22,825 nucleotides of DNA from a virus: the IMG/VR virus record IMGVR_UViG_3300048121_000332, positions 1 through 22,825 of that record; one strand, written 5' to 3'. A program made the position numbers and the translations under genes. The notes below the pieces were generated by a model. That model was not told the origin of the DNA, searched no databases, and worked only from the letters and a program-made list of their open reading frames with translations. Within the stretch, counting starts at the first letter, position 1; each line of letters opens with the position of its first letter. Below are positions 1-13,921 of this stretch, piece after piece.

Positions 1-1
1 A

Positions 2-517
2 ATTAGAAAGGATGACCCAATGGACCTAAAGATTTCTGTTCTTAATAGTTACGATGGCAGTTGGAAGTTCATGTCACTAGTAGGTGCGCTTAGACTTGCT
101 TGTTTAAATGGACAAGTGATAGGTAATTTCTTTTCTAGTTTCTATGGTAAGCATACCAAGAGTCTAGAGCCAGAGGTTGCAGTCAACAAACTTAGGATGA
201 GCTTAGGTACTTACACAGAGAACGCAGAGTACTGGAAGCAGTATCCTAATATACCAGTCAATGAGTTGCAGGTTAATAATGTGTTCATTAACTTAGCTGG
301 CGAGAGCAAGGTGCTAGGTGAATACCTACATAACATCTATGCTAAGTACCAAGATGACATGGGTGCTAACTTGTGGGCGTTGTACAATACATTGACTGAC
401 TGGAGTAGTCACGCTGAGTTTAGAAACAAAGCTAATCAAGCAGCTACTGTCATTACTAGAGAGCAGAAGGTAAGGAAAGTATTACCTATGCTAGAAAACA
501 TAAGGTTAGCAGCATGA
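2..517 (+). CDS. DUF932-type phage protein, 5' end cut by window edge
   Basis: The reading frame is open from base 2, so the gene probably begins left of the window. The first in-frame ATG is at 20, with a possible AAGGA site at 8-12. From that ATG the product would be 165 residues. The motif NSYDGS (residues 8-13) followed by LRLACLNG (24-31) matches my memory of the core of DUF932 proteins (phage/plasmid-like family), which usually run 250-350 residues. That family comparison suggests only the C-terminal part is seen here. The function of DUF932 is not settled; these genes often sit in early or accessory phage regions. The next gene starts inside the stop codon (ATGA at 514-517), so the two are translationally coupled. 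The family call is moderate confidence and the true start is unknown. Confidence 0.6.
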   Translation: MRKDDPMDLKISVLNSYDGSWKFMSLVGALRLACLNGQVIGNFFSSFYGKHTKSLEPEVAVNKLRMSLGTYTENAEYWKQYPNIPVNELQVNNVFINLAGESKVLGEYLHNIYAKYQDDMGANLWALYNTLTDWSSHAEFRNKANQAATVITREQKVRKVLPMLENIRLAA

Positions 518-819
518 ATACATACACAGTCAGAATAAATGTAGAAAAGTCTTTTGAATTTGATGATGAAATAGAAGCTGCTGATGAAGTAGACGCTGAA
601 GAAATAGCTAAGGGTAGACTATGGCGAGGTGACTACCAAAAAGAAGAGCGAGCTTGTGCTGAAATCACAGATGAAACATACAATGCTGAAGAAGTAGAAG
701 AGATTGTACAATGTGAGATATGCTGTGCTAGATATAGCAATTTAAAAGATGAAGATGAAAGAGGCTATACATTAGTAGAAGCTTTTGAAGAATCAGAGCA
801 AGTTATATACCAACCATAG
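514..819 (+). CDS. Hypothetical acidic protein with C-terminal Cys cluster
   Basis: A 101-residue product that I do not recognise. Residues 14-70 are rich in Glu and Asp with short alternating stretches. A CEICC cluster lies at about residues 67-71, which could bind a metal. The start overlaps the previous stop by four bases (ATGA). The following small Cys-containing gene begins 11 bases after its stop. It belongs to the early accessory cluster. The acidic character would fit a small host-inhibitory or DNA-mimic protein, but that is speculation; only the composition is visible. Confidence 0.6.
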   Translation: MNTYTVRINVEKSFEFDDEIEAADEVDAEEIAKGRLWRGDYQKEERACAEITDETYNAEEVEEIVQCEICCARYSNLKDEDERGYTLVEAFEESEQVIYQP

Positions 820-830
820 GAGATTAGTAT

Positions 831-995
831 ATGTATAAATGTAATAAATGTTACCATGCTTCGGATGAGCGAGAGGGATGTTTTACTACTGATGTAACTA
901 GATTCATCATGGAAAATACGCCACCTTGTTTGGATGGAACATGGCATATATTTAAACCAGAGTTTAATTTAATTAATATAGGAGAAAACGAATGA
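831..995 (+). CDS. Small Cys-containing protein, possible zinc ribbon
   Basis: A 54-residue product starting MYKCNKCYHA. CxxC sits at residues 4-7, with further cysteines at 17 and 33, a spacing that could form a small zinc-binding fold. An AGGAGA site at 818-823 sits seven bases before the ATG at 831. The stop codon (993-995) overlaps the ATG of the next gene at 992. No family is recognised. The operon spacing, the ribosome binding site and the coupled neighbour make a real gene likely despite its small size. Confidence 0.6.
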   Translation: MYKCNKCYHASDEREGCFTTDVTRFIMENTPPCLDGTWHIFKPEFNLINIGENE

Positions 996-1144
996 GTTAC
1001 ATGGGAGCATATGTATTATGGCTAGAAGAAGAAGGACTTGAGCCTTCACTAAAATACTGGGAACGCTATCAAAAAGAAAATCCTCACATGATTCCTAAAC
1101 CTAGAGATGAGGAGGAAGATGTCAAAGACACACGACTGGAATAA
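992..1144 (+). CDS. Small hypothetical protein
   Basis: A 50-residue product starting MSYMGAYVLW. It is rich in aromatic residues and Glu, with an acidic DEEED stretch near residues 39-43. The start overlaps the previous stop by four bases, and a GGAGAAAA site at 981-988 precedes it. Its 3' end overlaps the next gene by 26 bases in another frame; the DNA coding for its acidic stretch also supplies the AGGAGG site of that gene. No function is recognised. Confidence 0.55.
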   Translation: MSYMGAYVLWLEEEGLEPSLKYWERYQKENPHMIPKPRDEEEDVKDTRLE

Positions 1145-1391
1145 TAAAAGAAAATACTACACTCTTGATGATGGTAGAATAGTAACAATAAAAGAACTAG
1201 CAGAACTAACTGGCTTATCCCCTAAAACTTTATGGATTCGTCTGAAGAAAACTAGAGACTACAAGAAACTATCTAAGCCAAGTCAAAAGACAGGTAATAC
1301 TTTACCAAGAGTACCAGTTAAAACTGCCTTTCAAGAAACTTATGGTGACATGCCTCCTAAGTTATTTAAACTTTTGTTTGGTAAGTGGTAG
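1119..1391 (+). CDS. Small helix-turn-helix protein
   Basis: A 90-residue basic protein. Residues 23-41 (TIKELAELTGLSPKTLWIR) read as a helix-turn-helix: a helix, the TGLS turn and a recognition helix. It follows a YTLDDGRIVT strand, much like the HTH segments in small phage regulators and at the ends of homing nucleases. It may bind DNA and regulate early genes; no nuclease motif is present. I chose the ATG at 1119 because AGGAGG lies at 1110-1115. An in-frame ATG at 1107 would add four residues but has no clear ribosome binding site. The spacing of three bases is short. Confidence 0.6.
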   Translation: MSKTHDWNNKRKYYTLDDGRIVTIKELAELTGLSPKTLWIRLKKTRDYKKLSKPSQKTGNTLPRVPVKTAFQETYGDMPPKLFKLLFGKW

Positions 1392-1429
1392 TTTAATAGT
1401 TAAATACTATGTTAAAATAGGAGTGTTAA

Positions 1430-1642
1430 ATGGCAAGAAAAAAGATGCACGATGTAATAGTCAACATGGATATTATATTAAGTGTACCTAGTAAGACAGT
1501 TGAGGATGCTTACGATAAAGTAGAAGGTTTTTCAACAGAACGATTACTGTCTATAGCTTTAGAACAGCTACCCTTTAGTGAAATAAAAGGTGGTATGAAC
1601 TTTGTAGATGGAGTGTTTGATAGTAAGCATACAATAAACTAA
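1430..1642 (+). CDS. Hypothetical protein
   Basis: A 70-residue product starting MARKKMHDVI. It has a short basic start, a hydrophobic strand near residues 13-19 and then an amphipathic part. No family is recognised. An AGGAG site lies at 1419-1423 upstream of the ATG. The 38-base AT-rich gap before it holds an imperfect inverted repeat (1392-1417) but no convincing promoter. Its stop shares one base with the next ATG (TAATG), so the pair is likely co-translated. Confidence 0.6.
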   Translation: MARKKMHDVIVNMDIILSVPSKTVEDAYDKVEGFSTERLLSIALEQLPFSEIKGGMNFVDGVFDSKHTIN

Positions 1643-1857
1643 TGACAGATTATGGTATGGTAAACATGGAGGATGAGTCTGAGTATTTAAGTGACAAGCC
1701 TAAGTATTATAAGCAAGGCTGGCTTGACTGTAAACACGATAGACCCATAAGAAAGTTTACTTTACATAATAAAGCAGAAGCTGCTAACAAAGAGATATAC
1801 CTGATTGGTTACGCTGATTGTGTAGCCAATCTAGAATGGCAGTTTAATTACCAATAA
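1642..1857 (+). CDS. Hypothetical protein
   Basis: A 71-residue product starting MTDYGMVNME. An internal ATG at residue 9 is another possible start. The middle has KPKYYKQGWLDC, and the end is aromatic and hydrophobic (ANLEWQFNYQ). Two cysteines (30 and 60) are widely spaced. It lies directly before the ssDNA-binding protein, separated by a 15-base gap that carries the AGGAG site of that gene. No function is recognised. Confidence 0.55.
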   Translation: MTDYGMVNMEDESEYLSDKPKYYKQGWLDCKHDRPIRKFTLHNKAEAANKEIYLIGYADCVANLEWQFNYQ

Positions 1858-1872
1858 GACATAGGAGATAAT

Positions 1873-2268
1873 ATGTTAGTACAAGGAACCACTATTTTTA
1901 ACACATCACTTACTCAGTTTGATACCTATCAAGGGCAGTCAACTGATAAGTATTCTTTACAGATAACTCTGGATACATTCAACGCAGACATGCTTGATAA
2001 AGCTGGAGTCAAAGTAAAGGAGTACGAGGGAGAGCCAATCAGAAAGTTCACTAGTCGTTATGACATACCTGTTTTTACAGGAAAGAACGAGCGTTGGCAT
2101 GATGAAATACCTAGTGGCTCTACAGTTAGAGTAGAGTTCACAACTAAAGAGCATCCAACAGCAGGCATGGTTCCATATGCTAAGCGTGTGTTGCTATTAG
2201 AAATGGGTCAAGGATACGAAGGACAGAAAGAAGCTGATGACCAGTTCTTTGATACAAGTCCAGTATAA
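1873..2268 (+). CDS. ssDNA-binding protein, T7 gp2.5-like
   Basis: A 131-residue protein expected to coat single-stranded DNA at the phage replication fork. The sequence has the beta-rich look of a small OB-fold protein (TDKYSLQITLD, IPVFTGKN, GSTVRVEFTT, YAKRVLLLEM). It ends in a flexible acidic tail with terminal aromatics (EADDQFFDTSPV), the usual contact point with polymerase and primase-helicase in this class. T7 gp2.5 is longer (232 residues), so this is a compact version. An AGGAG site at 1862-1866 precedes the ATG at 1873. Its position directly before the primase-helicase supports the role. Sequence identity to known families is weak by eye, so the call is part motif and part context. 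Confidence 0.7.
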   Translation: MLVQGTTIFNTSLTQFDTYQGQSTDKYSLQITLDTFNADMLDKAGVKVKEYEGEPIRKFTSRYDIPVFTGKNERWHDEIPSGSTVRVEFTTKEHPTAGMVPYAKRVLLLEMGQGYEGQKEADDQFFDTSPV

Positions 2269-2373
2269 CTAAAGGAGAAGAGGTAGCTGGCTCACATGCC
2301 CAGCCTCCCTCCTCCTCAAAGTATGTGGGATTGGTTGCCCTAAGTAACCACTTATAATTATCGGAGGAGGATA
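2269..2373 (+). promoter_or_regulatory. Structured leader that can pair with the primase-helicase ribosome binding site
   Basis: This 105-base gap is the longest non-coding stretch in the window. It holds a hairpin with stem GCTGG (2286-2290) and CCAGC (2300-2304), directly followed by a pyrimidine tract (2304-2317). CCTCCTCC at 2308-2315 is exactly complementary to GGAGGAGG at 2363-2370, the ribosome binding site four bases before the primase-helicase ATG. A second short stem, TGGTT (2332-2336) with AACCA (2346-2350), lies between them and could bring the two tracts together. The pairing is seen in the sequence; translational control is inference. Confidence 0.5.
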
Positions 2374-4020
2374 ATGGAAGACCATAGAGAAGCTTGTCCA
2401 AAATGCAGAGAAGCAGGTGGTGATACTAAAGGTGATAACCTAGTAGTATACCAAGATGGAGCAGCACACTGCTACGCCTGTTCACACCATGTATTTCCAG
2501 ACAACAACCAAAGCACACCCAGCTACAAACCAAGGTTCAAGAAGAACGCAGAAGCAGTAAGCGAAGGTGTACACGCAGCCATAACCGACAGGAAGATATC
2601 CAAAGAAATAGCTACCAAGTACAAAGTCAAGGTAGAGTATGGAACTAACGGTCAGGTAATCAAACACCACTACCCATTCACAGATAAGTCATGTAGGATT
2701 GCAGCTTGGAAGACAAGAGATGTAGCTACTAAAGGCTTTCATATAACAGGCAGCTTTAAAGATGTAGGTTTGTTTGGTGAATGCTTATGGGATGCAGGAG
2801 GTAAGTACCTAACTATTACAGAAGGCGAGATAGATTGTATGTCACTAGCCGAAGTGTTCAATGGCAAGTGGGCAACAGTTAGTCTACGCAATGGTGCGCA
2901 AAGTGTAGTCAAGTCACTCAAAGATTCATTCGAGTTTGTTGATTCCTTTGAGAAGATAGTACTTGCTTTCGATGCAGATGAAGCAGGTAAAGAAGCTATT
3001 GATAAAGCACTAGAGATATTCAGTCCAGATAAGATAAAGATAATGTCTTATCCAGATGGTTACAAAGATGTCAGCGACATGCTACAAGCAGGATTAGTCA
3101 GAGACTTAGAGAACTGTTGGTGGCGAGCCAAGACTTATATGCCTAGTGATATAGTAGGCGCAACAGAAATAAAAGATAGCTGGATAAGTAGACCAAGTGT
3201 ACAGTCAGTACCTTATCCTTGGGTATGTCTTAATCAAAAGACCAAAGGCTTTAGACTAGGTGAGTTAGTTACAATCACATCAGGTACAGGTATGGGTAAG
3301 TCATCTGTTATCAGAGAGTTAGAACATCACCTGCTTACTACTACACAAGACAAGGTAGGTATCATACATCTAGAAGAAACTACCGAGCGTACTATCGATG
3401 GCTTAGTAGGTATTGAATTGTCTACACCCTATCACCTAGATGAAGTCAGACAGAACTTTCCAGAGCATGAAGCTACCGCAGCATTTGATAAGCTATTCAA
3501 ACGAGAAGATGGTGAAGAAGCTTTGTCATTGTATGAAGGCAAGGAGCTGTCAGTAGAAAAGATAGTCAGTCGTATCAGGCTTATGGCTAAAGCACAGAAC
3601 ATCAAGTGGATAATCCTGGACCATCTAAACCTAGTCATGTCAGGTGACACCAAGATAGATGAGCGTAGAAGTATAGACCAGCTAATGACACAGCTCCGTG
3701 AGGTAGTAGTAGAAACCAACATAGGTTTGTTTGTTATCTCTCATCTAAGTAGACAGCAAGGTGTTACCCATGAAGAAGGTGGTGAGATATCCCTTACACA
3801 CTTGCGTGGTAGCCAAGGTATCGCACAACTATCTAATATAGTCATAGCACTAGAGCGTAACCAACAACACGAGGATGACTGGATGCGTAATGTAACTAAG
3901 CTGCGTGTACTTAAGAACAGATACACAGGTGAGACAGGAGAAACAGGACATTTACATTATGATAATGAAACAGGTAGGATAACTGAAGTAGTTGTAGACT
4001 TAGAGGAGTTACTATCATGA
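2374..4020 (+). CDS. Bifunctional primase-helicase, T7 gp4-like
   Basis: A 548-residue replicative enzyme that makes primers and unwinds duplex DNA as a ring. The N-terminal zinc-binding domain has C8, C11, C33 and C36. A TOPRIM primase domain follows, with E150 (ITEGEID) and the DADEAG motif at 200-205. The C-terminal RecA-like helicase has Walker A GTGMGKSS (304-311), HLEET near 332-336 as the likely catalytic Glu region, Walker B IILD (413-416), VISH (454-457), LRGSQG (477-482) and a probable arginine finger in KNRYTGETG (R516). Length and domain order match T7 gp4 (566 residues), and all key motifs look intact. GGAGGAGG precedes the ATG. The stop overlaps the next start (ATGA). Confidence 0.95.
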   Translation: MEDHREACPKCREAGGDTKGDNLVVYQDGAAHCYACSHHVFPDNNQSTPSYKPRFKKNAEAVSEGVHAAITDRKISKEIATKYKVKVEYGTNGQVIKHHYPFTDKSCRIAAWKTRDVATKGFHITGSFKDVGLFGECLWDAGGKYLTITEGEIDCMSLAEVFNGKWATVSLRNGAQSVVKSLKDSFEFVDSFEKIVLAFDADEAGKEAIDKALEIFSPDKIKIMSYPDGYKDVSDMLQAGLVRDLENCWWRAKTYMPSDIVGATEIKDSWISRPSVQSVPYPWVCLNQKTKGFRLGELVTITSGTGMGKSSVIRELEHHLLTTTQDKVGIIHLEETTERTIDGLVGIELSTPYHLDEVRQNFPEHEATAAFDKLFKREDGEEALSLYEGKELSVEKIVSRIRLMAKAQNIKWIILDHLNLVMSGDTKIDERRSIDQLMTQLREVVVETNIGLFVISHLSRQQGVTHEEGGEISLTHLRGSQGIAQLSNIVIALERNQQHEDDWMRNVTKLRVLKNRYTGETGETGHLHYDNETGRITEVVVDLEELLS

Positions 4021-4136
4021 AGAAAAGAGGAGCAAAAGGAATTATACTAAAAGCAAAAAGCGGTAAGCCACCTAATGCTAGACTGATGCGTAGGAAAATA
4101 GCTAGAGATAAACTAAGAAAGAAGAGAAGAAAATGA
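4017..4136 (+). CDS. 39-residue very basic peptide between helicase and polymerase
   Basis: A complete small frame whose ATG overlaps the stop of the primase-helicase and whose stop overlaps the ATG of the polymerase, each by four bases. The product begins MKKRGAKGII and ends RDKLRKKRRK. More than a third of its residues are Lys or Arg and only one is acidic. The double coupling leaves no other explanation for the 112-base interval, so a real gene is likely. A nucleic-acid or polymerase contact is plausible, but nothing in the sequence proves it. Confidence 0.65.
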   Translation: MKKRGAKGIILKAKSGKPPNARLMRRKIARDKLRKKRRK

Positions 4137-5866
4137 AAGTAGCATTTGACATAGAGGCTAATGGCTTAGACCCTACGCTTATACATTGTATTGCTGCTAA
4201 GGTAATTGGACAAGATGTGTCTGAGTTCTGGACACCTGATAGAGTTAAGTATTTCCCTGCTTGGTTAGTAGAGATTAATGCTGAGGTATTAATAGGTCAT
4301 AACATTATAGGCTATGACTTACCTGTTCTAGATAAACTCCTAGGCTTTGAATGGTGGGGTGATGTAGAAGATACCCTAGTGATGAGTCGTCTGGACAACC
4401 CAAGTAGGGAAGGAGGGCATTCCTTGGCTGCGTGGGGTACTAGATTAAACTTTCCTAAAGGTGATTACAATGACTGGTCTACTTATACAGATGAGATGGG
4501 TGAGTACTGTAAGCAGGATGTTAATGTCCTTGTTAAATTACACAGGCTACTCACAAGCAAACAGATGTCTAAGCCAGCACTAGAGATGGAACATAAAGTA
4601 GCACAGATAACTCATAAGCAAACACAGAATGGTTGGAAGTTTGACTTACGCAAAGCTACTCATCTTCTAGCTTCTATTAAAGAAGAGATGTTCATAGCAG
4701 AAGATGAAGTACGCAAGGTATTTAAACCACTACCTGTATGGGTGGAGCTTAATCATCCCGGTGATAAGTGTATGAATAAAGATGGTACTCCTTCTAAGAG
4801 ATACATGAATCAACTAGCTAAAGGCGCACATTGGAAAGACGATACACATACTGAATGGGGACATGATATATACCCAGAGTTTAACTTAGGCAGCAGACAA
4901 CAGATAGCTAGATACCTACAGCACTTTGGCTGGACACCTAAAGAGTTTACAGAACTAGGTACAGTTATAGTATCAGAGACTGTACTAGAAAACATAGAGA
5001 TACCTGAAGGTAAACTTATAGCTAAGTACCTAATGTTACAGAAGCGACTAGGATTAGTCAGCGCATGGATAGATGCAGTAGATGACACAGGTAGAATACA
5101 CGGTAAGGTAAATACCTGTGGTGCTGTGACAGGTAGGATGACACACTCAAGTCCTAACCTAGCACAAGTACCTGCTAGTTACTCACCTTATGGTGAAGAC
5201 TGTAGAGAATTGTTTACAGTATCAGAAGGCTACAAGCTAGTAGGTATGGATGCGTCAGGCTTAGAACTCAGGATGCTTGCGCACTACATGAACGATGACG
5301 ACTACACCAACGAGGTGATTAATGGAGACATACACACAGCAAATCAAAGAGCTGCAAATCTTGACACTAGAGATAAAGCAAAGACATTCATCTATGCGTT
5401 CTTATACGGAGCAGGTGATAGCAAAATCGGGAGCGTTGTCGGAGGAACAGCTAAGGATGGTAAACGACTTAAGGCGGACTTCCTTAAAAATACACCAGCT
5501 CTTAAGAAACTACGAACTAGAATTACTGCGTCTGCTAATAGTGGGTCGCTTATAGGTTTGGATGGTCGGGTATTACATGTGCGAAGCTTACACGCAGCAT
5601 TGAATACCCTCCTCCAATCAGCAGGTGCTATCGTTATGAAGCGCGCTGTTGTATTACTTGACCATTTTAGTCAGGTATACAAGATAGATTACAAGATAGT
5701 AGGGCAGATACATGACGAGATACAAGTAGAAGTAGCAGAGAAACAAGCAGCTTTCTTCGGTGACTTGGCAGTTAATTGTGTACGCAGAGCAGGTAAAGAC
5801 TTTAAACTAAACTGTCCTTTGGATGGTGATTACAAGATTGGAACAACATGGAGGGAAACACACTGA
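4133..5866 (+). CDS. Family A DNA polymerase, T7-like, with proofreading domain
   Basis: A 577-residue replicative polymerase. The 3'-5' exonuclease motifs are D6/E8 (FDIEANG), N57/D62 (GHNIIGYD) and Y125/D129 (YCKQD). The polymerase motifs are A at D373 (DASGLELR), B at R413, K417, Y421 and Y425 (RDKAKTFIYAFLYG) and C at 527-529 (HDE). The stretches HAALNTLLQSAGA and AVTGRMTH closely match T7 gp5 as I remember it. It is about 127 residues shorter than T7 polymerase (704). Part of the difference lies between about residues 205 and 250, where T7 carries its thioredoxin-binding insertion. Y421 sits at the position of T7 Y526 and E. coli Pol I F762. It ends in His, as T7 gp5 does. The stop overlaps the next ATG (TGATGA). 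Confidence 0.95.
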   Translation: MKVAFDIEANGLDPTLIHCIAAKVIGQDVSEFWTPDRVKYFPAWLVEINAEVLIGHNIIGYDLPVLDKLLGFEWWGDVEDTLVMSRLDNPSREGGHSLAAWGTRLNFPKGDYNDWSTYTDEMGEYCKQDVNVLVKLHRLLTSKQMSKPALEMEHKVAQITHKQTQNGWKFDLRKATHLLASIKEEMFIAEDEVRKVFKPLPVWVELNHPGDKCMNKDGTPSKRYMNQLAKGAHWKDDTHTEWGHDIYPEFNLGSRQQIARYLQHFGWTPKEFTELGTVIVSETVLENIEIPEGKLIAKYLMLQKRLGLVSAWIDAVDDTGRIHGKVNTCGAVTGRMTHSSPNLAQVPASYSPYGEDCRELFTVSEGYKLVGMDASGLELRMLAHYMNDDDYTNEVINGDIHTANQRAANLDTRDKAKTFIYAFLYGAGDSKIGSVVGGTAKDGKRLKADFLKNTPALKKLRTRITASANSGSLIGLDGRVLHVRSLHAALNTLLQSAGAIVMKRAVVLLDHFSQVYKIDYKIVGQIHDEIQVEVAEKQAAFFGDLAVNCVRRAGKDFKLNCPLDGDYKIGTTWRETH

Positions 5867-6084
5867 TGAATAATATTAATCCTAGGTACTACAACAAGGG
5901 TAAAATACAAGTTACTGATTTCATCGAAGACCAGAAGCTTAGTTTTATAGAAGGCAACATTATTAAATATACATGTAGGTATAAAGATAAGTCAGGGATA
6001 CAAGATTTGAGGAAGGCTCGTTGGTATATAGATAAACTAATAGAGCTACAAATGGATATGCCACTCTTGGAGGAGAACCAATGA
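5866..6084 (+). CDS. DUF3310 family protein
   Basis: A 72-residue product starting MNNINPRYYN. The family hallmarks are NPRYYNKG at the start, then IEGNIIKYTCRYKDKSG and DLRKARWYIDKLI. DUF3310 is common in phage replication regions and its biochemical role is not established. I chose the ATG at 5866, which overlaps the polymerase stop, because the domain begins right after it and GAGGG lies at 5851-5855. An ATG at 5848 would add six residues inside the polymerase gene. It is coupled to the following exonuclease by an ATGA overlap. Confidence 0.8.
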   Translation: MNNINPRYYNKGKIQVTDFIEDQKLSFIEGNIIKYTCRYKDKSGIQDLRKARWYIDKLIELQMDMPLLEENQ

Positions 6085-6929
6085 AGAATATAAACACACT
6101 AGTAGAAGATGTGTATGGAGTACTGTCTTCTAGTAAAGCAGATAGTAATGTAGATGTAGATAAAGTAATAGAAGACTTCGGAGAATCTATGAAGTCGCTG
6201 CTTAGAGATAATGTACTCAAGGTAAGAGAAGACAAGCGTACCTTACGGATGTCTAACATAGGCAGGAAGGAGAGATTCCTGTGGTATGTACACAAAGGTA
6301 TGCCTCAAGAACAAATGAAGCCTAGTACCCTTATGAAGTTCCTGTATGGACATGCTACAGAAGAGTTAGTACTGGCTCTTGTTAAACTAGCTGGACATGA
6401 AGTTACACACCAACAAGCAGAAGCAGAAGTTTCTGGAATAAAAGGTAGCATGGACTGTGTTATTGATGGTAAACTAATTGATGTTAAAACAGCAGCACCT
6501 TTCGGCTTTAAGAAATTCAAAGAAGGAGGCTTACGATGGGATGACCCGTTTGGTTACATAGACCAACTGCGTGGTTATGCTGCTTCTCTCGGTGTACAAG
6601 ATGGAGGTTGGTTAGTAATAGATAAAACCAACGGTCACTTGTGTACCCACTTTGAAAACTTTGAGCATGACGAACCTATTGAAGTACAGATAGAACATCT
6701 CAAAGAAGTAGTGGAGAGAGAGGAAAGACCAGAGCAATGCTATGAGTTAGTACCTGATGGTAAGTCAGGCAACACAAAGCTTGCTATGGAGTGCAGCTAC
6801 TGTGTGTTTAAACAACATTGTTTTCCAAACATGAAGGTGTTCGCTTATTCAACTGGACCTAGGTTCTTAGTCGATGTAGTTAATTACCCGAAGGTAGCTG
6901 AAGTTTATAATTACTTTGACAAGGAGTAG
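6081..6929 (+). CDS. PD-(D/E)XK exonuclease (Cas4/RecB-like)
   Basis: A 282-residue nuclease expected to degrade DNA ends, in T7-type phages for host DNA recycling and recombination. RMSNIGRKERFLWY (56-69) is the typical entry motif, and GHATEE (90-95) supplies an acidic residue. D125 in GSMDCVIDG and D134-x-K136 in IDVKT form the core catalytic signature, with Q162 in YIDQLRGY. A CxxCx5C cluster (C238, C241, C247) near the C-terminus, plus C220, resembles the iron-sulfur cysteines of Cas4/AddB-type nucleases. The usual N-terminal Cys of Cas4 is absent. The start overlaps the DUF3310 stop by four bases. Confidence 0.85.
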   Translation: MKNINTLVEDVYGVLSSSKADSNVDVDKVIEDFGESMKSLLRDNVLKVREDKRTLRMSNIGRKERFLWYVHKGMPQEQMKPSTLMKFLYGHATEELVLALVKLAGHEVTHQQAEAEVSGIKGSMDCVIDGKLIDVKTAAPFGFKKFKEGGLRWDDPFGYIDQLRGYAASLGVQDGGWLVIDKTNGHLCTHFENFEHDEPIEVQIEHLKEVVEREERPEQCYELVPDGKSGNTKLAMECSYCVFKQHCFPNMKVFAYSTGPRFLVDVVNYPKVAEVYNYFDKE

Positions 6930-6931
6930 AT

Positions 6932-7027
6932 ATGAAAGAAATGATAGAGCAAGTACTGGCTAACAAATCACTTACAGTATTTTTAGGTATAGTAATCGTA
7001 GCCTTAGTGCTTGGTTGGGTAGGTTAG
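6932..7027 (+). CDS. 31-residue single-span membrane peptide
   Basis: A complete small frame with a strong AAGGAG site at 6921-6926 and ATG at 6932. The product starts MKEMIEQVLA and has one hydrophobic helix at about residues 14-30 (SLTVFLGIVIVALVLGWVG), ending almost directly after it. The N-terminal third is charged. A Rho-independent terminator begins 13 bases after the stop. Its role is unknown. Small one-helix proteins in early phage operons can alter the host membrane, but that is only a possibility. Confidence 0.6.
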   Translation: MKEMIEQVLANKSLTVFLGIVIVALVLGWVG

Positions 7028-7040
7028 TGAGATAAGACTG

Positions 7041-7072
7041 GGGGTTTCGTCTGTATGAGAACCCCTTTTTTT
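7041..7072 (+). terminator. Rho-independent terminator
   Basis: GGGGTT (7041-7046) pairs with AACCCC (7060-7065) across a 13-base loop. Two more pairs are possible inside the loop (TC with GA, with one bulged base). Seven T residues follow at 7066-7072. The next base begins the AGGAGGAG ribosome binding site of the rusA-like gene, so there is no room for a promoter after it. Expression of that gene must therefore depend on read-through, antitermination or an upstream start. Confidence 0.75.
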
Positions 7073-7082
7073 AGGAGGAGGT

Positions 7083-7484
7083 ATGGTTTACAAAGCTGTA
7101 ATAAAGCTGCCTACCTATAGTAAGGGCAGAGGAAAGAAGAAGCGTACTAATCTGTTTAGTATGAACATCTATAGAAACATGCACTACCTTAGTCTGAACA
7201 AGGTAAAGCAAGATTATCACAAAGAAGTAGAAGAGTGGGTAAAGGTTCTACCTAAGTTTAAGAACCTCACACCTAAGTATATTCTATTCTTTAAAGGAAA
7301 GAGAAAGAAAGACATAGATAACTATACATTTCCTGTACACAAGTTCCTAATGGACGCGCTGGTAGAGCATGAAGTGATAGCCGATGATAGTTATGACTAT
7401 GTTAGAGGATTCACCACGAGTTTTGGTGATGATGATATGGAAGATAGCTATGTAGTTATCGAATTAAATGGAGATGAGTTATGA
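7083..7484 (+). CDS. RusA-like Holliday junction resolvase
   Basis: A 133-residue protein expected to cut branched DNA such as Holliday junctions. The RusA signature is visible: KGKRKKDIDN (71-80), with D77 and D79 as metal ligands, FLMDAL (88-93), and IADDSYDYVRG (99-109) with D101/D102 as the third acidic position. Length is close to that of E. coli RusA (120). The basic N-terminus (KGRGKKKR, 14-21) suits DNA binding. AGGAGGAG at 7073-7080 lies two bases before the ATG and directly follows the terminator. T7 uses an unrelated enzyme (gp3) for this job, so the replication module is a mosaic. The stop overlaps the next ATG. Confidence 0.8.
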   Translation: MVYKAVIKLPTYSKGRGKKKRTNLFSMNIYRNMHYLSLNKVKQDYHKEVEEWVKVLPKFKNLTPKYILFFKGKRKKDIDNYTFPVHKFLMDALVEHEVIADDSYDYVRGFTTSFGDDDMEDSYVVIELNGDEL

Positions 7485-7744
7485 CACAAGCAGGTAGGCA
7501 AGAGATTATAAGAAGATTAGCAGAAGATTACGCAGAGAGAGCGAAAGTATTAAGTTTAAAGTTTGAAGATGCCTACAATATATATGCTAAAAGATGTGAA
7601 CTACGAGATGATGATAACCTGCTTCATCAATTCACATGTGCTAACTTAGGGAGATTACCTACCACTACTACAGCAGGTAGGTCAGATGAATATATAATTA
7701 CTACTGGTCCAGATGATTGTGAAGATGGAGTGTGTAAACTATGA
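7481..7744 (+). CDS. Hypothetical protein
   Basis: An 87-residue product starting MTQAGRQEII. Residues 1-50 look like one or two amphipathic helices (RLAEDYAERAKVLSLKFEDA). The rest is polar, with Thr repeats near 58-62 and a C-terminal DDCEDGVCKL. Three of its four cysteines lie outside any recognisable motif. It is coupled to the resolvase by an ATGA overlap and is the last substantial rightward gene before the strand switch. No family is recognised. Confidence 0.55.
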   Translation: MTQAGRQEIIRRLAEDYAERAKVLSLKFEDAYNIYAKRCELRDDDNLLHQFTCANLGRLPTTTTAGRSDEYIITTGPDDCEDGVCKL

Positions 7745-7800
7745 AGGAGAAGGAAGAGGAAAGACATCCACCTCGCCCACCAATGTCACCCTTTAGCTAG
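7741..7800 (+). CDS. Possible 19-residue peptide at the convergent junction
   Basis: A short frame starting MKEKEEERHP and ending MSPFS. Its ATG overlaps the previous stop by four bases, the pattern used throughout this operon. Its stop codon ends at 7800, directly next to the stop of the opposing gene at 7801. No distinct ribosome binding site is close by. It may be a real micro-gene or just spacer; the evidence is position only. Confidence 0.3.
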   Translation: MKEKEEERHPPRPPMSPFS

Positions 7801-8115
7801 TTATCTCCAGTTACTTTCATTAGATTTTCTTTCTTCATTGTAGTAACTTTGAAAACTTTTTAACTCTTCATCACTAAATTTATTATGAAGAGTAGCTAGA
7901 TAAGCTTCTCTAGAAGGTGTAGGTTCTATCTCTTCTTCATTTTCAGTAAAATAATCATAAGCTTTCTTACCTCCATAAGCAGCTAATCCAGCAGCCATTC
8001 CATAAGGAGTTCGTCTGGCTAACATACCAATTCCTTTAGCTATATTAATAGAAGTAGAAGGTCTAACATTCTGCTTAACTCCTAGTAAAGCATTTATATA
8101 AGTATTCATTGCCAT
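7801..8115 (-). CDS. Hypothetical protein, last gene of the leftward block
   Basis: A 104-residue product starting MAMNTYINAL. The ATG at 8115 shares a base with the stop of the 640-residue gene (TAATG), and GGAG lies upstream. A start at 8130 would add five residues. A small-residue stretch at about 29-45 (MLARRTPYGMAAGLAAYGG) could be a Gly/Ala-rich amphipathic or membrane helix. The C-terminal half is charged and helical. The order suggests a minor virion or assembly protein, but no family is recognised. Confidence 0.6.
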   Translation of the reverse strand: MAMNTYINALLGVKQNVRPSTSINIAKGIGMLARRTPYGMAAGLAAYGGKKAYDYFTENEEEIEPTPSREAYLATLHNKFSDEELKSFQSYYNEERKSNESNWR

Positions 8116-10037
8116 TAGTTCCAACTCCATTCAATAGGATTTCCAATCTTATTACCTATTGGTCTACCCCATATACCAATAGCTTCTTGTACACCAGCAG
8201 GTGTATTCCAATGCTCATCTTCAAAGTCTGCGCTCCAGTAGTTACCATCATCAGTACCTTCTACAGAACTACCTTGAAACCATCCCGGTTTTGTATTTGC
8301 TTTATCTTTACCACCGCTAATATCTCTATTATCTATAGACTTCTCATAAGGAGGCATGTCTTTATACTTAGATTTTATAGCTAAAGGTTCGTCTGCAATT
8401 AAATCAATACCTTTGTCTGGTGCAATAGGTATAAGAGAACCATCTATATCTCTATCTCCTACTAATTGATTAGCAGCACTTCCAACTCTTTGTACAACAG
8501 GTAATACATTAGCAGGTTTAATTACAGTTTCTCTAGGAGGTGGTATATCTATATCTTTAGTTCTTGATATAGGTCCATCTACTTTATTAGTTAATGTTCT
8601 AGGAGCAACAACTGGTATATCTATATCTTTAGTTCTTGCTATAGGTCCAGATACTTTACTAGTCATCATACCTTTAGGTACAGTAGTGGCTACAGCACTA
8701 GTCTGAGCAGCTCTGTTAGCTAATTGACTGGCTTGATATGCTTCATAAGCAGCAGCACTACCGTTTTCAAACAAGTCAGCTTGAGTAGCAGCAGCCATAG
8801 CAGCATCGTCATCCATGCGTTGTTTATTATTAAATGGTAAATCAGGGTCATTAAAACGAGGAGTTCCATTATCTAATACAGAAGTTCCAGTAGCTGCTTC
8901 TAAAGCACGCAATTGTTCCGGCTCTAAATATCCAGCCATTCCTTCAAAGTCACCGCCTCTAGCTTCAGCTTCTTTTAACATCTGATAGTATGCTATATCA
9001 TCAGAAGTTACTCTAACACTATTAGCAAGCTTAGAAGCATTAGCAGCCTCAGCAGCTAAAGCAGGAGAAACTTCTTGATTTCTAGTAGCTGTCATCATAC
9101 CTTTATTAAGGTCTGCTGCTAAGAGAGCATTACCTTCATCACTAATGCCTAATATTGCACCTGATTTAGAAGTGTCATTTAGTCCATCTGGTCCATTGTT
9201 TAGCGTAGGTTTTGCTTCATCAATCTTAGCTATAATAGGAGCAGCTTCTGCTGCGTCTATCTTAGGTTTAACAACACTTGACTCAGGTACATAAGCACCT
9301 AAAGCTTCATCGTATACTAACTTACCTTCATACTTAACAGTTCTTTCTAATTCTTGTGCTACTTTTAATTCAGTTGCTGCTCTAGCTGCAAGCTCACTTT
9401 CTAATACTGTACCTTTAGCTGTCTCAGCCATCTTAGTAGTAGTTGCACTTCTTGTAGTTGCTTGTTTAGATATTGCAGTCATTAAAGCTTTAACTGCTAA
9501 AGCATCTAATGCTACACTAACAGGTTGTTCAGCAAAAGAATCAGCAGCTTGCTCTAAGCTTCCATACTTATCAGCATAGTACTCATTAATAGCATTAGCA
9601 TACATCTTGTTAGTTGCCCAGTCTTCAGGGAGATATTGTTCCCACGAATCAGGCAATGCCTTTTGTGAATAACCAGCTAACACTCTAAGTACAGCCTCAC
9701 CAGTATCTATAGGATTAGCTACTGCTTGTGCTATATAATCCAACTCTTGTATAGCATCTGTGCTTAAATTACTACCTGCTGTAAATAATGTTTTAAAGAA
9801 ACCAGAGCCTTCATCTCTCAAATTAGGTGATAAATCTAATCCAAACATTTCAGATTCTGTTCTTGTTCCTTGTTCAGCTTCCCCTGCTGCTTGCATCTTA
9901 CCACTTTCATTGCCTGCTTCTAAACCAAAACTTGCTATTTCTGTATAAACAAGTGGCTGCCCAGCAGCATCATGAGCAACTCCATTTATAAATTGGACTG
10001 CTCCTGTATATTCATTACCGTTAGCATAAGTGTACAT
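8115..10037 (-). CDS. Putative internal virion/structural protein, 640 residues
   Basis: The product is mostly polar, Ala-rich and helical in its first two thirds, for example a long helix near residues 200-240. The C-terminal third is Pro/Asp-rich and holds a 24-residue tandem repeat (KVSGPIARTKDIDIP, then KVDGPISRTKDIDIP). It ends in an aromatic stretch (IEWSWN). There is no signal peptide and no enzymatic motif I recognise. The start at 10037 has an AGGAG site whose bases lie inside the end of the upstream 1293-residue gene. Its place after three other large virion-like genes suggests it belongs to the DNA-ejection or tail complex. Function is inferred from context only. Confidence 0.5.
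   Translation of the reverse strand: MYTYANGNEYTGAVQFINGVAHDAAGQPLVYTEIASFGLEAGNESGKMQAAGEAEQGTRTESEMFGLDLSPNLRDEGSGFFKTLFTAGSNLSTDAIQELDYIAQAVANPIDTGEAVLRVLAGYSQKALPDSWEQYLPEDWATNKMYANAINEYYADKYGSLEQAADSFAEQPVSVALDALAVKALMTAISKQATTRSATTTKMAETAKGTVLESELAARAATELKVAQELERTVKYEGKLVYDEALGAYVPESSVVKPKIDAAEAAPIIAKIDEAKPTLNNGPDGLNDTSKSGAILGISDEGNALLAADLNKGMMTATRNQEVSPALAAEAANASKLANSVRVTSDDIAYYQMLKEAEARGGDFEGMAGYLEPEQLRALEAATGTSVLDNGTPRFNDPDLPFNNKQRMDDDAAMAAATQADLFENGSAAAYEAYQASQLANRAAQTSAVATTVPKGMMTSKVSGPIARTKDIDIPVVAPRTLTNKVDGPISRTKDIDIPPPRETVIKPANVLPVVQRVGSAANQLVGDRDIDGSLIPIAPDKGIDLIADEPLAIKSKYKDMPPYEKSIDNRDISGGKDKANTKPGWFQGSSVEGTDDGNYWSADFEDEHWNTPAGVQEAIGIWGRPIGNKIGNPIEWSWN
8542..8663 (-). repeat. 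Two-copy in-frame direct repeat, 72-base period
   Basis: Two copies of a roughly 50-base unit lie at 8542-8591 and 8614-8663, differing at only a few bases. They encode the repeated GPIARTKDIDIP / GPISRTKDIDIP segment of the 640-residue protein. The 72-base period is exactly 24 codons, so copies can be gained or lost without a frameshift. Confidence 0.75.
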
Positions 10038-10039
10038 AA

Positions 10040-13000
10040 TTATCTCCTGTTATCTTCGGGGTCTCCGTATTGTGGGAATCCAAAGAAACCCGTGAATGTT
10101 CTTTCAAATCTTTCTTGCCAATCTAAGTCTTCATCTAGTACAGACTTACCTACAATAGGTATAGTCTTTCCTAGTATCCACTTAGCATAGTGTTGTGTAC
10201 CATCTTCATCTACTAGTCTTGGACCAAGTGGCATACCTTGTTTAAGTGAGAACCATTGTTTATTAAACATAAGTTCTAATGCTGTCTTAGGTACAACACT
10301 TGTCTTGTTCATAAAAGTGTGCATTGGATGTTGCGCCCAATGTATAGGCTCTGCAATCTGTTTAGATATAACCATAGTCTCTCCATTACCTAAGTCTAAT
10401 CTACCACTATTTTCACTGCTCCAGAAATCCCATAAGTTTTCCATAGTAGCTTCTTCATCACTAAACATTGAAGTCAACGCCCACCACATAGCTGAAGTAT
10501 ACATACCTGCTTTAACACTATAAGCAGCATAAGCATTCCATGCTTTAACAGCAGCTTTAGCTTCAGGGTCAAAATCCCAATTACCTTTCTGTATTCTTTT
10601 AGCAACTGCTTTACTCATGTTAGGAAAACCAGTCATTGTTTTATACACAATCCTAATATTAGATACAGTCCAGTCAGGTGCAAACAATCCTAAGTTTAAC
10701 CACCTTCTTTTATTAACAGGTATTAACTGAGCTAATCTATTAGCAGCTTTACTTCTTAATCTATTAGGGTTCTTTGCTGCATATCTATACAATCTAGTAG
10801 CAAAGTTATTCCAGTCTAAAGAACCAAACGCATCATTAGCAAATTCAGAAGCTTTCTGTCCAGCTAGTTTAGGTTCAATACCAGCATCTAACATCTTTTC
10901 TTTCTGCTTTAAATAAACAGCTAACTTAAATCTATCATGTAAATACTCCCATGTTACAGTATCTATCTTATTAAAAGCACCCATCATTATATCTCCTCCT
11001 CTTCCTAGCTTAGGTAGAAAAGCATCTATCTGCGCTTTACCGGGGTTGACTAACTCTTGTCTTTTAATATTAACAATCTGTAAACCATCTGCTATAGCTT
11101 CTTTAGCTAAGTCTATAAACTTAGTCTCACCTAGCTGCATGTCTGCCCATGTTACATCTTTTGTTATTTTGTTTCTACCTACTTTAAAAGCTCCTTTCAA
11201 AGCTCCAGCTAAACCTAAAGAGTAAACACCAGACATAAGTAGTGCTTGTGCGTGGAACAAAGAACCAAATACAAACACACGCTTTAAAGCATTGTTAAGT
11301 TTAAGTACTCTTTCTGCCATATCTCCTATGTTTCCTCTATGTCTTATAGCAAAGAAATCATCTAGTACATGATGAATATTGTTATGCGCTAAATAACCTT
11401 TTAAAGCAGGATGGTCAAAGGTTCTATAGTGAGTCATTTCTTGGTCGCTTAATTTACCAGCACCTTTAAGTAATTCAAAGTCTGCTTCCTTTAATAAAGC
11501 AGGTAATGATATATCGTTTCTGTTAGGAGCAAAACCTAAGTCCATTTTCTCCATACTATTTAAAGCATTTCTACCTATAATAGCTCTAGACATACCTTGT
11601 ATGTATACATTGATAGCTTCTTTAGGACTAAGTAGTGTTAATCCAGTAGTTAATCTACCACTATCTATCATGTCTTGTATGTCAGCAAGAGTACCTTCTA
11701 TGTTTCTTTTAGTAGCACTTCCATCGTTAAGTTTACCTAGTATGATAGTTAAATCATCATCAGTTAGTTTATCCATATTGCGGAATAGATGAGGAAAGTA
11801 GTTGTTTAAGAACGCACCTCTGGATGAAGAGTCCATACCTTTCATACTTAACTTCATTACTCCATCTTTATTAGCTATAAGTCCAGAGTCAACTGCTTGT
11901 TTACCTATCTCATCTAACAGTTGTTTAATTTCATTCCTAGCTTTTCTCATATCACTAGTTATATTAATACTAGCTGAGTCTACTCCTTCTATGCTATTAA
12001 TAATAGTTCTTACTTGAGCATCTGTAAACTTATCTAGCTGACTTATAATTACTTGTGCTTGCGTTTCCCATACTTTAGCTTGCTCAGCATCTATTTCTAA
12101 TCCTTCAGCTATCTGAGCCTTAATCCTAGCAGTAGTAGTATTTATAGTCTTACCTTTAAGCAGCTTATATCCTTTAGGTCCAAGTGCTACGCCTAATCCT
12201 ACAGCTAATGCTTGCTGTAAAGGTTCTTCTTCTTCCTTGTCAGCGACTGCGTAAGCACCTCCAGCCAATCCAGCAGCTATTCCTAGCTTTTTCCTAGGAT
12301 TGTCTTCTAACCAAGTCATACCTCTGTTGACAATACTCGGTGTTGTATTTACATCTATATCATCAGGTGTAGTTCTACTAGCTTTAAGCTCTTCTACTAG
12401 CTCATCTACTTGTCTATTACTAGTAGTCATACCTTCTGCTTCTACTTGCTCATAAGCTCTTTCAAGCTCATTTAACGCCATGTCATTAGCATCGTTTTCT
12501 TTCATACTAATAGCTTCATCAGCAGTTCTAGCTTGAGGCTCTGGTTTTAATCTTTGTTTTACTTTAGCTAACTCAGCAGCCATTAAATAACTTCTATAAC
12601 TATTCTCGTCTCTAAGAAATAAGTGCTGACTAGGTGTTATATCTTTAAAAGACTCTCCTAATATATTCTCATAGTTTTTATAAAAGTCTTTAAATTCTTT
12701 ACTTATCTTTCCTTCCTGCCAAACTATATGACTAACATTGTCTTTAACAATAGACTGTACAGGTACATCATCTCTAACATTAGGTAGTTTTGCAGCTTTA
12801 GCCTGAGCAAGTGTAACAACTCTATACTCCACACCATCTTTTAACTCAGGGAAAATACGAGTGTCATGCTCAGTATAAATCTTATGTGCTGCTTTTTTAA
12901 CTCTATTAATTTCCTGAGCAGGGTATAAAGCATCTACTGCTTCAGAGGCAAATTCTTTAGTAGCAGGCTCAGTAGGGGTTTTCTTTTGTGCTTCCTGAAC

Positions 13001-13921
13001 CATTGATTTGTAATCAATTCTATCACCACCAGCTTTACCTCTTTTTATCTGCAACTCTTGTGCTTGTTTAGCTTTTAAATCTTTACTAGTCCTACCTAAA
13101 ATACCTAGTCCAGCTAACACACCAAAGCCAGCACCAAAAGCTGCACCGGCTTTAACTTGATTACCTTTAACACTACCTTGATTAAGTTTACTATAAGCAG
13201 CTTCATAGCCAGCACCTATAGCCGAACCGCCAGCAACTCCTGTACCTACCTTAGCTAATCCTCTAAGCGCAGCAGGTTGTATATTGTTTAGCTTATTAAG
13301 AGTAGTAGCTACTATCTTACCACCTTGAGCTGCTCCTGAGCTGCCTCCTGTAAAAGGAGAAGCTAGTAAAGCTAAAAGAGTTATAGGTAAATCTTTTATA
13401 ATCTCTGCTGTAAATACACCACCTACATAAGAAGGGTTTTGTTTAAAGAGTTCTATTAAAGCACCTAATGCTGCTTCATCTTCAGTATCAACACCCCATC
13501 TTTGATTAAAACTTTTACCATCTTTATCTATAACAGCATCTAAATCTCCACCTTTAGTATCATAGACATGTTGTAAATCTCTAGTCAAGATAGTATTTCT
13601 ATTTACCATCTCTTTTAAATCTGTACTTTCTAACTCAGTTAATTTCCTATGTTTAGCTAGCTCTTCATACTCAGCTATAGCTTTATCTAATTCATTCTTT
13701 CCAAATTGAATACCGTTTCTTTGTACATACCATTTCTTTTGACTACTATCACTAGCACCTTTGCTTGCTAAAATACCAGACAAGCCAGAAGTAAACCAAG
13801 AACCTACACTATTATGTCCACTAATAAAACCACCAGCAAAACCTGAATTATCTTCAGGTAAATAGCGAGCCATCTCAGCTTCAAACTGTGCCTCTCTTTC
13901 TGCTACTGTTCTATAAGCCAT
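10040..13921 (-). CDS. Very large internal virion/ejection-type protein, 1293 residues
   Basis: The largest gene in the window. Size and position fit a T7 gp16-like ejected virion protein. It has several Gly/Ala-rich hydrophobic segments: about 174-198, 217-242, 256-276 (AAFGAGFGVLAGLGILG), 545-583 and 882-912. These look like glycine-zipper helices able to insert in membranes. An NNYFPHLF motif lies at 706-713, and the C-terminus has GFFGFPQYGD. I see no lytic transglycosylase signature, unlike T7 gp16. Parts recall the large polyvalent-type proteins of marine phages, but I cannot assign a named domain. It starts one base from the stop of the 360-residue gene and is followed by the 640-residue gene. 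Confidence 0.6.
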   Translation of the reverse strand: MAYRTVAEREAQFEAEMARYLPEDNSGFAGGFISGHNSVGSWFTSGLSGILASKGASDSSQKKWYVQRNGIQFGKNELDKAIAEYEELAKHRKLTELESTDLKEMVNRNTILTRDLQHVYDTKGGDLDAVIDKDGKSFNQRWGVDTEDEAALGALIELFKQNPSYVGGVFTAEIIKDLPITLLALLASPFTGGSSGAAQGGKIVATTLNKLNNIQPAALRGLAKVGTGVAGGSAIGAGYEAAYSKLNQGSVKGNQVKAGAAFGAGFGVLAGLGILGRTSKDLKAKQAQELQIKRGKAGGDRIDYKSMVQEAQKKTPTEPATKEFASEAVDALYPAQEINRVKKAAHKIYTEHDTRIFPELKDGVEYRVVTLAQAKAAKLPNVRDDVPVQSIVKDNVSHIVWQEGKISKEFKDFYKNYENILGESFKDITPSQHLFLRDENSYRSYLMAAELAKVKQRLKPEPQARTADEAISMKENDANDMALNELERAYEQVEAEGMTTSNRQVDELVEELKASRTTPDDIDVNTTPSIVNRGMTWLEDNPRKKLGIAAGLAGGAYAVADKEEEEPLQQALAVGLGVALGPKGYKLLKGKTINTTTARIKAQIAEGLEIDAEQAKVWETQAQVIISQLDKFTDAQVRTIINSIEGVDSASINITSDMRKARNEIKQLLDEIGKQAVDSGLIANKDGVMKLSMKGMDSSSRGAFLNNYFPHLFRNMDKLTDDDLTIILGKLNDGSATKRNIEGTLADIQDMIDSGRLTTGLTLLSPKEAINVYIQGMSRAIIGRNALNSMEKMDLGFAPNRNDISLPALLKEADFELLKGAGKLSDQEMTHYRTFDHPALKGYLAHNNIHHVLDDFFAIRHRGNIGDMAERVLKLNNALKRVFVFGSLFHAQALLMSGVYSLGLAGALKGAFKVGRNKITKDVTWADMQLGETKFIDLAKEAIADGLQIVNIKRQELVNPGKAQIDAFLPKLGRGGDIMMGAFNKIDTVTWEYLHDRFKLAVYLKQKEKMLDAGIEPKLAGQKASEFANDAFGSLDWNNFATRLYRYAAKNPNRLRSKAANRLAQLIPVNKRRWLNLGLFAPDWTVSNIRIVYKTMTGFPNMSKAVAKRIQKGNWDFDPEAKAAVKAWNAYAAYSVKAGMYTSAMWWALTSMFSDEEATMENLWDFWSSENSGRLDLGNGETMVISKQIAEPIHWAQHPMHTFMNKTSVVPKTALELMFNKQWFSLKQGMPLGPRLVDEDGTQHYAKWILGKTIPIVGKSVLDEDLDWQERFERTFTGFFGFPQYGDPEDNRR

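Follow-up and report, generated by a model that had tools for sequence, protein, structure and literature searches.

A covarying pseudoknot and hairpin in the leader of a phage primase-helicase gene, a candidate regulatory RNA

The window, the whole 22,825-nucleotide stretch of viral DNA analysed here, contains a 105-nt gap (2269-2373, + strand) between a gene for a putative single-stranded DNA-binding protein (SSB-like) and a primase-helicase gene. Covariation among 21 distinct leaders shows that 2286-2350 folds as an H-type pseudoknot (stems S1 and S2) with a hairpin (S3) behind it; the loop of S3 pairs with the junction between S2 and S3. The chance is put at about even that this leader RNA regulates in cis and represents a class outside the searched library, with two states and an SSB as the leading candidate effector. 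The RNA element probably controls the gene that follows. A sequence-only reading had proposed that the gap is kept for a purpose, which the conserved, covarying RNA structure supports well, and that a pyrimidine tract can mask the ribosome binding site (RBS). The conserved object is the pseudoknot, and masking of the Shine-Dalgarno (SD) sequence is at most one of two states.

The gap and its flanking genes

Loci compared with the window are labelled with L-numbers (L022, L278 and so on). The SSB-like gene (1873-2268, + strand) lies directly 5' of the RNA element and was assigned by protein similarity to the L278 protein (53% identity, 113 aa), which matches the PHROG family of Gp2.5-like ssDNA-binding proteins (1.2e-6). 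The window protein itself gave no PHROG match and, in Pfam, only a sub-threshold match to POT1 (E 0.012). The likely regulated gene (2374-4020, + strand) matches PHROG DNA primase/helicase (1.2e-167) and carries Toprim and DnaB_C domains.

The gap had been described as the only one over 100 bases in its operon. This fails when ORFs of at least 40 aa are counted, since 4021-4132 and 6930-7082 exceed 105 nt, but by eye each of these contains a small ORF (4017-4136, 39 aa; 6932-7027, 31 aa). With small ORFs counted, the gap is the longest stretch free of gene-like ORFs among the + strand genes of 1-7744. A promoter in the gap was ruled out: a promoter scan of 1800-8200 gave no + strand match there, and 12 promoter-like matches over that range compared with 16.0 in shuffles.

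Structure of the leader

Leaders were collected by scans with primase proteins and with the leader pattern. Twenty-seven loci were tried, including the window; 25 contained the element, four of these were duplicates, and L016 (truncated) and L142 (element absent) were left out. The resulting 21 leaders belong to one clade of closely related phages. The hairpins at 2286-2304 and 2332-2350 that had been pointed out earlier both exist and are conserved; what had been missed is that the loop of the first pairs with 2321-2327 to make the pseudoknot.

Stem S1 pairs 2286-2290 with 2300-2304 around a loop at 2291-2299, and its pair 2289/2301 is AU in 12, GC in 8 and GU in 1 of 21 rows. Failures fall on the outermost pair 2286/2304 (9/21 rows), on 2288/2302 (3/20) and on 2287/2303 (1/21); by eye, 8 of the 9 rows with a failed outermost pair have an extra pair inserted, which makes the stem longer. 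Variants run from GCUGG/CCAGC to GCUAG/CUAGC and, with the inserted pair, to CUCAG/CUGAG and CUUAG/CUAAG. The 5' strand of S2 (CACAUGC, 2293-2299) lies within the S1 loop and pairs with the 3' strand (GUAUGUG, 2321-2327) in 100% of cells. Two S2 pairs change on both sides (CG 12, GC 8, AU 1; and AU 20, GC 1), and the variants GACAUGC/GUAUGUC, GACAUAC/GUAUGUC and AGCAUAC/GUAUGCU leave the stem paired in 21/21 rows. Loop 1 is CU (2291-2292) and loop 2 is empty. Loop 3 (2305-2320) includes the pyrimidine tract at 2308-2315, and its 2306-2317 segment, TCCCTCCTCCTC, is invariant in 21/21.

Hairpin S3 (2332-2350) has the loop CCUAA closed by a C-G pair, and its stem changes from GGUU/AACC to GAUU/AAUC, the pair 2334/2348 being GC in 11 and AU in 10 of 21 rows. 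The junction contacts the S3 loop (2328-2340) through G2328-C2340, which is GC in 12 and CG in 9 of 21 rows, and G2329-C2339, which is GC in 21/21. In the 9 of 21 leaders that differ, a G-to-C change of the base preceding GAUUG goes with a C-to-G change of the third S3 loop base.

Compensatory changes are thus found in all four parts (S1, S2, S3 and the junction pair). Of all cells, 96.8% were paired, against 24-40% with partners slid by 1 to 3 columns; the 21 rows form one clade, so shared ancestry inflates such cell counts and independent events are fewer than cells. None of 500 shuffles matched the observed cells paired, both-side cells or covariation score. Five pairs show changes on both sides, a count that 11/500 shuffles reached; the number of further pair types was reached by 497/500.

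The same alignment bears on two other accounts of the gap. One is a DNA structure that falls here by chance, for instance a primase site or the start of replication; it would suit the DNA-handling neighbours, and S3 could extrude from single-stranded DNA. This reading is nonetheless very improbable: G-U pairs, which suit RNA and not DNA, stand in S2 in 15/21 rows and in S3 in 5/21, and the folding of single-stranded DNA gave z -1.80 with 9/200 shuffles equally good. A leader peptide, MPSLPPPQSMWDWLP, could be encoded at 2296-2343, where an ATG and a proline run over the tract would permit a polyproline stall. This account is almost certainly wrong, being refuted in the relatives: the ATG is ATA in 6 of the 21 and the peptide has a different end in 7 more, so that start and frame are not kept. 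Indels and loss of the start codon disrupt the ORF, yet the RNA structure is maintained.

Pyrimidine tract and Shine-Dalgarno sequence

The tract CCTCCTCC (2308-2315) is, as had been reported, exactly complementary to the SD GGAGGAGG (2363-2370), and the duplex of 8 bp has a free energy of -14.8 kcal/mol. In the sequence-only reading the tract simply masks the SD, S1 and S3 bring the two together, and a phage protein releases them. Folding of 2260-2390, which had been suggested as a check, did pick the masked state, with an unpaired probability of 0.01-0.02 at 7 of the 8 SD bases; nested folding of this kind is blind to pseudoknots, and the fold had z -1.74, with 11/200 shuffles folding equally well. 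The complementarity alone is modest and only mildly unusual, a Watson-Crick helix of at least 8 being reached in 22/600 mononucleotide shuffles of the gap.

Comparison of the two tracts for compensatory changes, the second check, gave none. The tract and SD pair in 92.9% of cells in the 21 relatives, with 0 of 168 cells changed on both sides. No such change is seen because the tract is invariant; in L138 the SD is out of register in the alignment, and only six bases (GAGGAG) are still complementary. The lack of covariation therefore says little for or against masking. The tract is also loop 3 of the pseudoknot, and its pairing with the SD crosses S2, which covaries; drawing both together would need a further knot. 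The leader would therefore have two probably exclusive states.

The window leader ranks its own RBS 2 of 36, but over 36 clusters leaders pair no better with their own RBS than with those of other phages (p 0.42). An identical GGAGGAGG also precedes the RusA-like gene at 7074, and there the complementarity to the tract amounts to 9 bases. In those relatives outside the clade whose leaders were read, the tract and the long SD are both absent, which speaks for masking. Loss of the tract with the RBS kept and no compensation, which would speak against masking, is half seen in L027: it lacks the tract and keeps S3 and the RBS, but that RBS is also weaker. Simple masking appears fairly unlikely as the whole explanation, and the conserved object is the pseudoknot.

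Between S3 and the SD lies an A+U-rich linker (2351-2362; A+U 0.83). Over 31 clusters, the A+U fraction of the linker after S3 averaged 0.70, against 0.57 for the loci.

Distribution of the hairpin among phages

S3 and its 5' flank were sought in viral contigs with the pattern xGAUUG-NNNN-CCyUAAG-NNNN-C, in which x pairs with y. Among the matches listed, the four free stem positions were all complementary in 61/95 of the C..G form and 34/70 of the G..C form, against 0/77 in a permuted-loop control; the 61/95 and 34/70 cover only loci first fetched by two open scans, their totals are to be read as 'at least', and matches from related contigs are not independent. An earlier count that included previously collected loci gave 77/111 and 59/95 fully paired, again among the matches listed. 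One copy was present in 17 of 18 records chosen because they contain the element, and two in the other; the reversed pattern gave 0. A further 18 records, chosen to include five relatives without the element, yielded 13 with it, once each. Loci were grouped by a crude 8-mer overlap, which may merge unlike contexts (L323/L343/L367), into 59 clusters, and 62 after genome loci were added. Twenty-nine different 4-base stem strands were found over the 62 clusters.

A second helix directly 5' of xGAUUG accompanies S3 in two further families. In the helicase-leader family, several of whose leaders precede a DNA-helicase gene, and also in Polynucleobacter-like chromosomes, the sequence that follows AACCNNNNCA forms a helix with the sequence that precedes CGAUUG. 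The first six pairs form in 88% over 18 distinct rows, against 14-39% when slid and 65% with swapped partners, with two-sided changes at several pairs; this count keeps L358 and L406, which are probably chance anchor matches. In the ssb leaders the second helix varies by eye (GACUU/AAGUC, AACUU/AAGUU, AGUAGCA/UGCUACU, CAUCU/AGAUG) and lies in the loop of an outer hairpin (ACAG/CUGU, becoming UCAG/CUGA and AUAG/CUAU), so that by eye these leaders appear to have the topology of the window. A blind test for S2 over 58 clusters, taking the longest complement with G-U allowed, gave a mean of 5.55 against controls of 5.18 and 5.25, which was not above the controls, and S2 is therefore claimed only in the window, the helicase-leader family and, by eye, the ssb family.

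The element was absent from 13 stretches of named phages chosen by primase, helicase, annealing or capsid protein, and the leader DNA gave no similarity to named phages, or short matches at E 0.2. One of the stretches (L489) has a single CCATAAG hairpin without the flank. L387 has two hairpin copies, at 10621 and 10984 (363 nt apart), each just past the stop codon of consecutive genes. In L365 (257, 283) and L382 (7777, 8127) the first hairpin has a second one nearby, which repeats the CCGTAAG loop and is flanked by CGACTTG.

Bacterial copies and action on transcription

When bacterial and archaeal genomes were scanned with the pattern, 15 matches were obtained, 8 of them with all four pairs. 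Four of these 8 are from Polynucleobacter species and related MAGs, in the AACC..CA form followed by T6-T8. The Snodgrassella alvi copy (L502 3440-3900, - strand) has two known RNAs to its 3' side, isrK at a distance of 258 bases and C4 at 355 bases, and precedes a putative antirepressor-like gene. The L505 copy is inside ORFs and may be a chance match. In L494, L497, L500 and L501 (Polynucleobacter and relatives) a longer shared stretch, AGGCAUGAGUG ... AACCGUGUCAG, stands 5' of the element; it is echoed in some phage helicase leaders and may belong to a larger RNA.

An alternative is that the element acts on transcription or mRNA life, as an attenuator, a mid-operon RNase barrier, or an antitermination RNA of the kind of the put and EAR-like RNAs. 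Very different genes follow the element, it occurs mostly once per record, and a T-run stands just 3' of S3 in 9/62 clusters; some members may therefore act in this way. In Polynucleobacter and relatives the run is T6-T8. The terminator scan also listed the window S3 as terminator-like. However, the tail in the window is CTTATAATTA, the terminator-like matches numbered 3 against a shuffle mean of 3.0, 53/62 clusters are without a T-run, and 31 clusters have an RBS within 75 nt 3' of the element. Action on transcription or mRNA life is regarded as unlikely.

Neighbouring genes

The element recurs in phages that are not related to one another, in many cases next to genes for DNA replication. The gene 3' of the element is an SSB in L215, L367 and L404 (PHROG 44, E 4e-36 to 3e-48) and a DNA helicase (PHROG 62) in L301 and L291. 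In L278 a Gp2.5-like SSB gene and a primase-like gene lie downstream of the element. The gene 5' of the element is Erf in L261; in L230 it matches SSB families, with a best named match of 2.1e-12 and a top match of unknown function. In L224 and L287 the element precedes major head protein genes, and some members precede genes of unknown kind.

Among relatives at about 63-67% primase identity, the element was found in 10, each time beside the same SSB-like gene (48-65% identical to that of the window). Five of the ten (L028, L032, L033, L036, L038) have it 5' of this gene, and the other five (L027, L145-L148) have it just 3'. No copy was present in the available fragments of L026, L030, L035, L142 and L144, and L029, L031 and L034 were too short to judge. 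Within these relatives, then, the element moves and, where found, stays beside the SSB-like gene.

Comparison with known RNAs

Rfam 15 families were searched at gathering score. None matched in the window or in 15 further phage loci, and in 7 bacterial loci the only matches were C4 and isrK in L502, away from the element. Permissive settings at four elements gave weak unrelated matches only. The STAXI model (RF01728) gave no match in the window, in L365 or in five bacterial genomes with the element; a wider search of 185 genomes gave no match, controls included, and hence has no positive control. Among the matches listed by a full-text literature search, no description of the motif was found.

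SAM-II and preQ1-II are H-type pseudoknot riboswitches that hide the RBS. They share with the window a small pseudoknot before the RBS and possible pairing with the SD, but neither covariance model matched in the window. A riboswitch for a small molecule or ion that changes during infection would accord with the compact fold, the invariant loop letters and free stems, and the presence of the element ahead of dissimilar genes and on a few bacterial chromosomes. This is distinctly improbable, as no common metabolite pathway is evident, the named genes are mostly for DNA handling, and no Rfam family matched at the elements searched.

The T4 gene 32 leader is the nearest known system in its working, and STAXI the nearest motif by neighbourhood. 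As described for T4 and RB69, SSB binds a pseudoknot in the gene 32 leader and is believed to extend from there along A+U-rich RNA as far as the RBS (PMC3014915, PMC535899). A 2010 review calls T4 gene 32 perhaps the sole viral case of translational autoregulation by a pseudoknot leader (PMC3014915). The window likewise has a 5' pseudoknot upstream of the RBS (S2 100% paired, with both-side changes) in the leader of a phage replication gene, an A+U-rich stretch to the RBS (2351-2362, with S3 intervening after the pseudoknot) and an adjoining SSB-like gene, here the upstream neighbour. By position, the element does not precede ssb itself in the window; it does in L215, L367 and L404. Unlike the gene 32 leaders, the window element adds a third hairpin with a fixed loop, the junction pairs and an invariant pyrimidine loop; it precedes a primase-helicase gene, and the class also precedes helicase and capsid genes.

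In the published STAXI entry, the motif is a pseudoknot near SSB and other DNA-handling genes, sometimes near c4 antisense RNA, with units in tandem arrays of two or three (PMC2864571). The Snodgrassella copy near a C4 RNA has a similar context, but the element here is single in 17/18 records. The same paper's entries for the manA and wcaG motifs describe structured RNAs in marine phages (PMC2864571), whereas the loci searched here gave no match to them at gathering score.

Proposed mechanism

S2 continues into S3, and the pairing of the S3 loop with the junction joins the three helices S1, S2 and S3 into one compact body, as covariation shows. The receptor is probably this body, with the linker rich in A+U and the SD behind it as the output. 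In state 1 the pseudoknot would be formed and the SD open; in state 2 the tract-SD helix would form and the SD be masked, if both states are used in vivo. Binding of an effector to the folded body would set the output. The neighbourhood and the analogy with T4 suggest the phage ssDNA-binding protein encoded next door as the leading candidate. By that analogy, excess SSB could nucleate on the pseudoknot and spread over the A+U-rich leader, as T4 gp32 does on its own leader, and the supply of helicase would be tied to the amount of bare ssDNA. SSB feedback does not account for the members whose following gene encodes a capsid protein (L224, L287) or is of unknown kind, and these speak against it.

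A broader proposal, held with somewhat less than even confidence, is that the element belongs to a class of sensor RNA that is widespread and so far undescribed. A hairpin locked to the junction (xGAUUG-stem-CCyUAAG-stem) would be stacked on a second helix that varies. Unrelated phages, and a few bacterial chromosomes, would carry it roughly once per genome, close to a gene for replication or for the capsid, and a single signal of infection, either bare ssDNA/SSB or a small molecule, would gate when that gene is expressed; the window would hold a short form whose spare loop serves as an anti-Shine-Dalgarno. If this is right, many uncultured phages would have one RNA control element in common near their replication genes, and T4 gene 32 would no longer be the lone phage pseudoknot leader. 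Since the element is short, strictly conserved and in most records present once, the effector can be sought directly. It would also help to annotate leaders of this kind in viral metagenomes, as a marker.

Other features of the window

The 39-aa ORF at 4017-4136 is strongly basic and, by eye, overlaps both the primase-helicase and the DNA polymerase genes. At 6932-7082 a 31-aa hydrophobic ORF is followed by an inverted repeat with a T-run, then by AGGAGGAGG and the RusA-like gene; the inverted repeat and T-run are terminator-like by eye and absent from the list of the terminator scan. For the 94-aa ORF at 1107-1391, PHROG gave a weak match (7e-6) to exclusion proteins of the Ren-like kind. The 1293-aa ORF at 10040-13921 (- strand) gave no PHROG match at 1e-3. 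Within a 640-aa ORF of the minus strand, a 51-nt direct repeat (92% identity, 72 from start to start) is present at 8541-8663.
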